A DNA stretch of 38,707 nt from Alphaproteobacteria bacterium (GTDB taxonomy: Bacteria > Pseudomonadota > Alphaproteobacteria > TMED109): NCBI GenBank assembly GCA_022819905.1, contig JAJEGJ010000064.1, positions 1 to 38,707 of the forward strand, given 5' to 3'. Shown piece by piece: positions 22,729 to 26,851 of the stretch; the first letter of the stretch is position 1; every line of letters starts with the position of its first letter. Position numbers and translations under genes: made by a program. The notes under the pieces are model-generated. The model was not told where the DNA came from and ran no database searches. It saw only the letters and a program-made list of their open reading frames with translations.

Positions 22729-23850
22729 CTAATCGGACGGCACCGCTTCCGCAATCGCGACCGCCAATCCTTCTCTTGCTTCCGGCAGAATGCCGAAAAC
22801 CACGCCCTCCCCGGCGTCGAACGCCTCCACGACCAACCCGTTCTCCACGCGGCCCAATGCCGTCGGCGTAAAGGATGTCAACTCGCCGTCCCGGACGACC
22901 CACACGCGGTTCTGCTCCTGAATGGCGGCCTCCGGCAGCGTGTAGACATTCTCATAGGCGGGACCTTCGATCTCGCCCTCACCAAACGAGCCTGGCAACG
23001 GCAACGAAGCCACCGTCTGATTGGAGGCAAACCTGAAAAACACGGTTGCCAGACGGCTGCTCGGAGCGACCATCGAGGACACGCGCGTCGCCTCCAACCG
23101 ATGGGTACCCACTTCTGTGCGAACTACCGCGGAACGCCCCTTGAGCGGGCTCAAATACCCGAGGCTCGAGACTTCCATCGGTGCCTCGAACTGCAACGCG
23201 TCGACCCGATACACGGTGCCGATCCTGCCCCCGGGGCCAACGTCACGATGCGGACCGACGACCTCGCCAACCTCCAATTCGGTACTGATCACTCGACTCT
23301 CGTACGGCAGGGAAATACTCGTTCGTTCAAGTTGGAGTCTTGCCAACTCAAGCCCCGTCTCCGCGCTGGCCAGTTGCGCTTCCGCAAGCGCTACCCGCAA
23401 TGCGTTTCCCCGGGCCTCCTCGATTTGCAGCCGGACCGCCGCTTCACTGACCGCGTTCGCAGCCGCCTTGACCTGAAGCTCGTACTCGGTCGGATCAATC
23501 TGAACAAACTGCTCGTTCGCCGGAATCACTCCGCCGTTATTGAAGTTTGGTGAAATCCAGCTAACTCGTCCGGTGACTTCTGCAACAATGCCTGTCTGTT
23601 CTTCCAGTGTTACCGCCCCGGTCAGCTTTAACTTAATCGACTGGTCTACAATTTCGGGTTTGACTACCTGCACAACAGGTTTGGCTGCATCAAATGACAG
23701 ACCGGAAGATGTATCGATTTGAACATGACCAGGAGCCCTGGCGAAATACAGTGCTACGACAATCGCCGCCAGAATCAGCGCCGCCTGCACAAAGCCAGGC
23801 AACCGAAACCGCCCGGGCTGCACGGCTTGGCCATCATTAAGCTGTGCCAT
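22729..23850 (-). CDS. RND efflux periplasmic adaptor (HlyD/MFP family)
   Basis: About 373 residues from ATG 23850. A start 20 codons upstream is possible, but GGAAA before MAQLNDG supports this one. A single N-terminal helix (VQAALILAAIVVALYFA) anchors it. The barrel-sandwich half follows (VTLEEQTGIVAEVTGRVSWI). Next is a helical hairpin rich in Ala and Glu, then the second half and beta-barrel (LPYESRVISTELEVGEVV). It links the RND pump to an outer-membrane channel. It is first in a two-gene operon with the permease. The upstream spacer is long and AT-rich, so regulation may lie there. Confidence 0.92.
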   Translation of the reverse strand: MAQLNDGQAVQPGRFRLPGFVQAALILAAIVVALYFARAPGHVQIDTSSGLSFDAAKPVVQVVKPEIVDQSIKLKLTGAVTLEEQTGIVAEVTGRVSWISPNFNNGGVIPANEQFVQIDPTEYELQVKAAANAVSEAAVRLQIEEARGNALRVALAEAQLASAETGLELARLQLERTSISLPYESRVISTELEVGEVVGPHRDVGPGGRIGTVYRVDALQFEAPMEVSSLGYLSPLKGRSAVVRTEVGTHRLEATRVSSMVAPSSRLATVFFRFASNQTVASLPLPGSFGEGEIEGPAYENVYTLPEAAIQEQNRVWVVRDGELTSFTPTALGRVENGLVVEAFDAGEGVVFGILPEAREGLAVAIAEAVPSD

Positions 23851-24009
23851 CTTGATTTCCGATTGCTGATACGAGTTCCCCGGTGCGCGGGGCGGAAACC
23901 TAGAGGCCACGAATCAAGGAACCACGCCGTACTGCATTTGCTCCAGGAGTTGCCGAGCCTCTATTCATCCTCCCAATGGTGCCGGTAATCCGCAAAATAC
24001 ACCTCGTAA

Positions 24010-24115
24010 CCGAGCATGTCCATACGACTCAATATCAATTATCCGCAACTTATAACGTTTCTGCTCTTTATGTTGACTTGACGTTCGACAAGCTTGCTAG
24101 CAACCACATGCTCGG
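24010..24115. repeat. 10-bp inverted repeat enclosing a palindrome
   Basis: CCGAGCATGT (24010-24019) and ACATGCTCGG (24106-24115) are perfect inverse copies with 86 bases between. Just inside the right arm lies the perfect 10-bp palindrome TTGCTAGCAA (24094-24103). The transcript could fold into one long-range stem, as in a structured RNA or a small element's ends. No transposase frame lies between. Confidence 0.4.
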
Positions 24116-24651
24116 GTGGCAGACTGCTTCCACCGCAAAACCATACCTTTGCGCACCAGCCAAACCAGTACTGCAAGTCACTTATCGACCAAGTCCCGAC
24201 CTATCGTGCCGCTGGTTCGTGATACTCACCTGTCAACACTTCACCTACCAACCGCTGCAGGAGGAAGTATGGCGCAGACCAGCTGCCTCCCCAGCAATGC
24301 ACTCTGATGATTTGTTCTAACGACAACAGTCACGAACTGCATGGCAAAGAATATCTCCGATAGCGACAAGCGTTCAATTGGAGGCAACATGACGTCGCAA
24401 TAAAGATTGCCCGTGCTGTATTTGTACCTTCTACGTCAATTAACTTGAAGCGTCCTGCCAAGTATACGTCACTCGCAGACGGGCTGCCGTTCGGCAGGAA
24501 GGTCCCGGAGCGTTCGCTTGTAGCGTGCCCGCGTCAGCCAGTGCGGATCGCGTTCGCTGCGACATTGCCAGCCCCCGCTCCCGGCGACCAGCGAGTCTAC
24601 CATCGCAGCGTCAACTCCCGCCATGAAAGACTGTTGCTGAGCACTTGTCCC

Positions 24652-24661
24652 GGGGGGGGGG
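24652..24661 (+). repeat. Homopolymeric G10 tract
   Basis: Ten G residues in a row, about 100-160 bases before the DUF2157 gene. Runs of this length are prone to slippage during replication. In a promoter region they can change spacing and so expression. It is the longest homopolymer I saw in the window. Confidence 0.9.
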
Positions 24662-24822
24662 CCACAATCCGGAGACGCCCCAAAACGGCACCGACATGAC
24701 GACCCATTCGCAGCGCCGGGGACACGCGCTAAACTCCGATACAGATAAGCGTTTCTTCGACCTTGTTCACCTTGGAGCGTGCCCCGTTGCGTCTGATTCG
24801 CCTGCTGAAGAAGGACTTGGCG

Positions 24823-26112
24823 ATGGAAGCATCGACCTGGGTCGACAGCCGGTTGATCACGCTCGAGCAAGCAAGTGCCATCTGCCGACTTTACGGCATT
24901 GACTACGACACCATCCGGCACCACTCCGGCGCCTACCGCGTGCTGGTCGTTCTCGGATTCCTCTTCATCTGGTTATCGCTGATTACCCTGATCGGCGCGA
25001 ACTGGGACACGATTCCCCGGGCAGCGCGAATGGTGGGGTTGCTGGTCCTGACAGCAGGCACCCACGGTGTGGCCACGCACCTGCATCTGTCCGGCAAGGC
25101 TCGGCCAGCAGTGGCGCTCTTTTTGCTTGGGAACCTGTTTTACGGCGCATCCATCGTCCTGATCGCCCAGATCTACCACCTCGGCGAGCACATCCCGGAC
25201 GGTGTGTTCGTGTGGGCATTGGGGAGCCTCCCATTTGCGGTAGTCCTGTGCAACGCGTGGCTAGCACTGCTCAGTGGTCTGCTTGCCCTCACCTGGTTCG
25301 TCCTGGAATTCAGGACGGAGTTCCTGTCGGCCACATTCTTCGTCTCGGCGTTTCCGCTGTTTCTCGTGGCCGAATCCTACGTAATGGCAAAGGGCCGGGC
25401 GAGCCCGCTGCTTTTCCTGGTGTTCGTTGCGAGCCTCGTTCTTTGGTTTGAGACGGCGCTGGCCCTGCTGTGGGCGGATGGCGGCGGTGGGCTCGAATAC
25501 ACCTCGGAACATGCCTTTGTCGCTGCTGCGCTGTTCATCCTGGCGTATGCCGTCGGCCGTTGGCTCGACATGCAGGAAAGTGCGAAGGTCCGCGACCACG
25601 GCACGGTGTTGTCGCTGTGGACCCTGCGGGTTGCCCTGCTCTCGCTGATCGTGCTGAGCTTCGATGCGCCCTGGGAATGGGTGCTCTCCGCCGACTGGGA
25701 CCATCAGACTTCGATGTGGATCATCATTGCCGCCGTCGTCGCAGCCGCACTCCGGATCGGCTGGAAGTCCGCGAACCGCTGGCTCCTTTTCGGGATGACC
25801 GTCGGGAGCGGCGCGACCATGATCGCAGTGGTCGCAACCAGTACGGGCGATGCAGCGGTGTACTTTCAGGTGCTCGCAAACGTCATGCTCGTGGTTACCG
25901 GAATCGGGTTGATCTTCCGCGGTACGGTGAGCGGGATTTCGCACCTCTACTTCCTCGGTGTCGCCACCGTCCTGCTGACCGCATTCGTGCGCTACATCGA
26001 CCTGCTGGGCGACTACGTGGACAGCGCGATCCTGTTCATCGCGCTGGCGGGCGTGTTGCTGGGATCGGCGTGGTACTGGAAACGTCGCCGCGGAAACGAG
26101 GCTGGACGATGA
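24823..26112 (+). CDS. DUF2157-domain integral membrane protein
   Basis: About 429 residues from ATG 24823, preceded by AAGGA. The frame stays open upstream with TTG codons at 24763 and 24787 (the latter with GGAG). Those would add a helix (RLIRLLKKDLA) that also fits the family, so the start is uncertain by up to 20 codons. The N-terminal helical piece TWVDSRLITLEQASAICRLYG is typical of DUF2157. About a dozen membrane helices follow, the first being LVVLGFLFIWLSLITLIGANW. Function is unknown. It overlaps the next gene by ATGA, and that partner also belongs to the usual DUF2157 neighbourhood. Confidence 0.85.
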   Translation: MEASTWVDSRLITLEQASAICRLYGIDYDTIRHHSGAYRVLVVLGFLFIWLSLITLIGANWDTIPRAARMVGLLVLTAGTHGVATHLHLSGKARPAVALFLLGNLFYGASIVLIAQIYHLGEHIPDGVFVWALGSLPFAVVLCNAWLALLSGLLALTWFVLEFRTEFLSATFFVSAFPLFLVAESYVMAKGRASPLLFLVFVASLVLWFETALALLWADGGGGLEYTSEHAFVAAALFILAYAVGRWLDMQESAKVRDHGTVLSLWTLRVALLSLIVLSFDAPWEWVLSADWDHQTSMWIIIAAVVAAALRIGWKSANRWLLFGMTVGSGATMIAVVATSTGDAAVYFQVLANVMLVVTGIGLIFRGTVSGISHLYFLGVATVLLTAFVRYIDLLGDYVDSAILFIALAGVLLGSAWYWKRRRGNEAGR

Positions 26113-26639
26113 CCAGGGCGCAAACGTCTGCTCTCCTTTGCGCCGCCATCGTGTTTCAGATTCTCGTGCTGGTGGGCATGGTGGCTAGAGCCGCATTGCC
26201 GCTGTGGACCGGCACCGAGATCCGAGTCGCGACAGTGCCGGTGGACCCCCGTTCGATGTTCCGGGGCGACTACGTGCGGCTTCGCTATGAGGTAGGAACC
26301 CTGCCGAGCGACGCGTTCAGCGAAGCGCAGCCCCCGCGCGTGGGCCAGATCGTGTACGTCAGCCTGGCGAAGGGAGCAGACGGCCATTACGGGTTCGCGG
26401 GAGCGTCGCTGGAGAGACCGGCGGGCGGCAAGTTTCTCCGCGGCCGAATTGCCAGGAACCACGCCCCCATACGGGTCAGGTATGGGATCGAGGCCTTCTT
26501 TGCATCGAAGGAAGAGGCCGCGCGGTTGGAGCGGGGTCTCCTCGAAGGCGGTGTCGCGGTGCTGATGGTATCCCCCGACGGACGGGCCGCACTGAAGGCC
26601 GTTGTGCCCTCGTTGTCACGGCCGGCCGGTGGGGAATAG
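26109..26639 (+). CDS. GDYXXLXY-family protein
   Basis: This 176-residue protein has an N-terminal membrane helix (ALLCAAIVFQILVLVGMVA) and an outside domain. The family signature is plain: PVDPRSMFRGDYVRLRYE at about residues 47-64. A second half carries VRYGIEAFFASKEEA, also typical. Such proteins are encoded next to DUF2157 proteins in many bacteria. Their function is unknown, but the conserved pairing suggests a membrane complex. The start ATG 26109 overlaps the DUF2157 stop. The DUF4401 gene often found in such clusters is missing here. Confidence 0.88.
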   Translation: MTRAQTSALLCAAIVFQILVLVGMVARAALPLWTGTEIRVATVPVDPRSMFRGDYVRLRYEVGTLPSDAFSEAQPPRVGQIVYVSLAKGADGHYGFAGASLERPAGGKFLRGRIARNHAPIRVRYGIEAFFASKEEAARLERGLLEGGVAVLMVSPDGRAALKAVVPSLSRPAGGE

Positions 26640-26851
26640 AGCCGATCGCCAGGGAGGTGGCCGATGCAACGCCAGACCCGACATGTGGGATGCGGTGGGC
26701 GGGCGACCGATCCACCGGCGGGGGCTCGACCGGCAGCTTCGCTTCAGGAACCGATTCGAATTGGCTGAGGCACAATGGCATCGAACGTAAGCAGGCGAAG
26801 GCCCCGCGCCCCTTGCCCGAGCCAACCATGATGTTGAACGGACAACCGGTC

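Follow-up and report, generated by a model that had tools for sequence, protein, structure and literature searches.

A ten-guanine tract upstream of a DUF2157/GDYXXLXY gene pair in an alphaproteobacterial genome is probably a chance homopolymer in a fast-evolving spacer

The likeliest reading of the run of ten guanines at positions 24652-24661 (forward strand, flanked by CCC and CC) is ordinary spacer DNA that is not under selection. The window, that is the whole 38.7-kb stretch analysed, is contig C15 of an uncultured alphaproteobacterial genome of 3.6 Mb (G000; 123 contigs, 96% complete), which was compared with six congeners, one genome per species (G001-G006). With a probability of about 0.6, the tract is a homopolymer that grew by chance in a fast-evolving spacer, is probably unstable in length, lies beyond the core promoter, and scarcely affects the DUF2157/GDYXXLXY gene pair downstream, if at all.

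The tract is unusual within the window, but how unusual depends on the null model. Direct reading of the sequence confirmed the exact position given in the preliminary description. It is the only homopolymer of at least 7 nt in the window, the other bases having none; G runs of lengths 1 to 6 number 6206, 2029, 451, 86, 16, and 4, there are none of 7-9, and there is one of 10. Overlapping G8 matches occur 3 times, compared to 3.45 expected from dinucleotide shuffles. The expected number of G or C runs of at least 10 per window is 0.20 under a first-order chain and 0.02-0.05 under chains of orders 2-5. Across G000 there are 11 interior G/C tracts of at least 9 nt, of which six reach at least 10 (on C15, C44, C48, C79, C96, and C117), or about 0.065 per 38.7 kb; six further tracts lie within 65 bases of contig ends (C28, C73, and C79). 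The view that the run is rare by chance hinges on the null chosen; 0.02-0.2 such runs are expected per window and the genome has six interior ones, so that composition alone does not make the tract astonishing. Its length exceeds the slip length of at least 7-8 G/C bases applied to SSR-mediated transcriptional phase variation.

The tract lies in an 852-nt spacer (23911-24762), delimited from the open reading frame list, between the DUF2157 reading frame and a divergent gene for an HlyD-type periplasmic adaptor (22729-23910, minus strand; PF13437), whose start is about 740 nt from the tract. Downstream on the plus strand are a DUF2157 membrane protein (24772-26112; PF09925, E 8.9e-32, 110.2 bits, cut-off 32.4) and a GDYXXLXY protein (26109-26639; PF14345, E 3.1e-31, 108.6 bits, cut-off 27). 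The two genes overlap by 4 nt and both Pfam models score above their curated cut-offs, bearing out the claim that the tract precedes a membrane-protein operon. The longest DUF2157 frame begins at TTG 24763, while the start conserved across three orthologues (TTG, TTG, and GTG) is TTG 24772. The latter is probably the true start, and the tract is 110 nt from it. With dN of 0.17-0.18 and dS of 0.80-0.84 against two congeners, the DUF2157 gene is under purifying selection. In one paper on LiaF, its DUF2157 region is treated as part of envelope-stress proteins (PMC11237479). An Rfam search of the window gave no match.

Comparison with relatives indicates that the spacer evolves fast, with no sign of strong constraint in the alignments, and the tract was seen in no relative. 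A search of 41 genomes, including G000, found DUF2157 in six, four of which belong to the genus, the match in G003 being a fragment. The orthologues of G001 and G006 have 75% and 73% amino acid identity, but their DNA matches the window no further up than the gene start (about 24762-24767), and what precedes it is unrelated. No G run of at least 7 was found upstream of either orthologue, so that a tract at the orthologous place, a supporting rather than strictly defining feature of the phase-variable class, is present in neither of the two congeners with comparable upstream DNA. The spacer aligns to the closer congeners over 23900-24418 at 77% (G003) and over 23900-24581 at 71% (G002), while longer alignments that take in neighbouring coding DNA have 87-90% identity. 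Deletions have removed 24582-26832 from G002 and most of the gene pair from G003, the tract position being lost in both, and in G004 and G005 neither the DUF2157 gene nor the spacer was found. Next to the HlyD gene, which is conserved, the pair is deleted in G002 (C10) and survives as remnants in G003 (C18); in other congeners DUF2157 is retained under purifying selection.

Promoter predictions place the tract upstream of the likely promoter. The plus strand from 24560 to 24765 was scanned with a weight matrix of E. coli frequencies. The best predicted sigma-70-like pair, TTCGCA-N17-TAAACT (24707-24735, plus strand, score 8.3), lies wholly downstream of the tract and begins 46 nt past it; on the window's plus strand, about 0.021 pairs per 200 nt reach a score of at least 8. 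Among -35/-10 pairs spanning the tract with 15-19 nt spacing, none scored above about 0.8. A strict consensus scan for promoters and terminators over 23800-24900 gave no plus-strand promoter and nothing near the tract, only a promoter-like site on the minus strand (24022-23994) and a terminator-like site at 23820, close to the yield from shuffled sequence. The predicted pair is missing from this stricter scan because it matches the consensus at 8 of 12 positions. If it is the promoter, the tract lies at about -81 to -90. By these predictions the tract is neither inside a promoter nor between promoter elements. The proposal that changes in its length alter the promoter spacing of the gene pair is therefore not supported: the best predicted promoter is downstream, no good pair spans the tract, and the tract is also missing from the orthologous upstream regions compared. 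In the proposed mechanism, a homopolymer would grow by chance in the fast-evolving spacer and would probably be unstable in length. Some 80-90 bp upstream of the likely transcription start, beyond the core promoter, its length would most likely have little or no effect on the two genes.

Some observations argue against a chance tract, and they bear on the chief alternative, a transcriptional contingency tract. Here slipped-strand changes in length would shift how an upstream regulator contacts the promoter of DUF2157, and the pair would be expressed in an ON/OFF or a graded manner. This reading is possible, at odds of roughly one in four by our estimate. Run lengths in the window stop at 6 except for this tract, and the other five interior tracts of at least 10 are in or just before genes for surface-type or PIN-domain proteins (in the case of C44 by eye). 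The promoter, moreover, is a prediction based on E. coli frequencies. In Neisseria, porA and opc show promoter phase variation by tract spacing. The nadA gene of Neisseria resembles the present case in that a simple repeat lies upstream of the gene and outside the coding frame, and its description indicates that, with distal elements, a tract can count even when it lies beyond the core promoter, by way of regulator spacing (PMC2791445). The tract also lies between a divergent gene pair and upstream of an operon, and it is longer than the cut-off of at least 7 G/C bases used in the Campylobacter phasome work described with PhasomeIt (PMC6321876). Against this, and in contrast to the Neisseria systems, no predicted core promoter spans the tract, and the tract is not conserved where comparison is possible. 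Most Campylobacter poly-G/C tracts are inside reading frames, whereas this one is intergenic and alone in its window, and G000 has a high GC content, making G runs commoner by composition than in the Campylobacter setting. The target is a conserved pair of inner-membrane type under purifying selection, not a surface antigen. Were the tract a switch, it would add one more ordinary case to a class that is already well known.

Other G tracts of the genome look far more like contingency loci than the one in the window, judging from their positions, and this switch-like placement is a further point for a contingency tract. A G14 on C48 (8166-8179) and a G13 on C117 (9550-9562) are 45 and 64 nt before the likely starts of TonB-dependent receptors with Plug and barrel domains, compared to 110 nt for the window's tract, a difference that counts against it. 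Each sits between TACTCAC and TGCGTCT, with exactly 24 nt separating the two motifs. With gaps of 18-36 nt, these motifs occur together only at these two places among the seven genomes, a uniqueness that is not independent because the pattern was derived from the two sites. For two of the 16 Plug-domain matches in G000, the 500 nt before the plug contain a run of at least 7; one of the 16 had only 101 nt of upstream sequence. On C79, a G10 (50974-50983) lies where frames of 1290 and 830 codons overlap and one Ig/cadherin-like domain switches frame at the tract, making it a candidate coding contingency locus in a giant cadherin/Big_9-type protein. A G11 on C44 lies inside an open frame of 632 codons with no Pfam match, the end of which looks by eye like an outer-membrane barrel, and a G10 on C96 lies inside a PIN-domain frame. 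A wider reading joins all of these in a genome-wide G-tract phasome of an uncultured proteobacterial lineage. It would comprise the G13-14 tracts in TACTCAC-N24-TGCGTCT before the TonB receptors, the coding G10-11 tracts (cadherin-like, barrel-like, and PIN), and, as a transcriptional switch of the envelope pair DUF2157/GDYXXLXY, the window's G10. This joint claim is unlikely as a whole. The more useful result is a hint at the level of the genome: in an uncultured environmental lineage of high GC content, G tracts may serve as contingency loci for giant surface proteins and outer-membrane receptors.

The two tracts before TonB receptors are candidates for transcriptional phase variation, or they belong to foreign contigs. 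The stretch upstream of the C117 receptor was found in G000 alone among the seven genomes, and nothing in the other six exceeds 32% identity to the C48 receptor, so C48 is possibly a binning contaminant. In tetranucleotide profile, C48 and C117 are closer to each other and to C3 and C33 (0.75-0.82) than to the reference contigs (averages of 0.53 and 0.62), although the similarity of C117 to C21 is also 0.75. Both contigs may be misbinned. Run counts of the contigs sampled for these profiles are biased upward because they were partly chosen for bearing tracts.

Two other explanations of the window's tract are less probable still. Short-read poly-G noise could have produced a sequencing or assembly artefact, the true length being different or the tract absent. 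With 30 of 70 tract places in the genomes inspected, many tracts of at least 10 G in the congeners and several in G000 are at contig ends, beside N gaps, or in G/C-only junk, but the window's tract is 14 kb inside its contig, between sequences that are normal and unique, and an artefact is rather improbable. Where contig ends consist of G/C-only junk or carry long runs of G (C79, 1-65, and congeners), poly-G read artefacts are the likely cause. A short antisense gene, with the tract shifting the frame of a 151-codon reading frame that spans it (24469-24924, minus strand), was rejected as very improbable, since that frame matches no Pfam family at E values up to 1 and runs into the conserved start of DUF2157, and since congeners yielded no match to most of the region.

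It is plausible that G9-G14 tracts slip in this genome, given the frame break on C79, the G13 and G14 before TonB receptors, and a G9/G10 length difference between C53 and its counterpart in G002. By analogy it is plausible that the window's tract may change in length, while a regulatory effect of its length at this site is unsupported. The C53 case (at 71695) is a segment of about 770 nt that is 99% identical, with four substitutions, to one on C8 of G002 (5820), and the only indel is at the G tract (G9T and G10TT). This tract directly follows the stop codon of a 180-codon membrane-type gene, and tracts of such length thus arise where a switch is not obvious. Such near-identity, in two species with 87% identity at the window locus, and its abrupt end within a short frame downstream suggest recent transfer of the segment; that frame, with no family call, reads like an excisionase-type helix-turn-helix.
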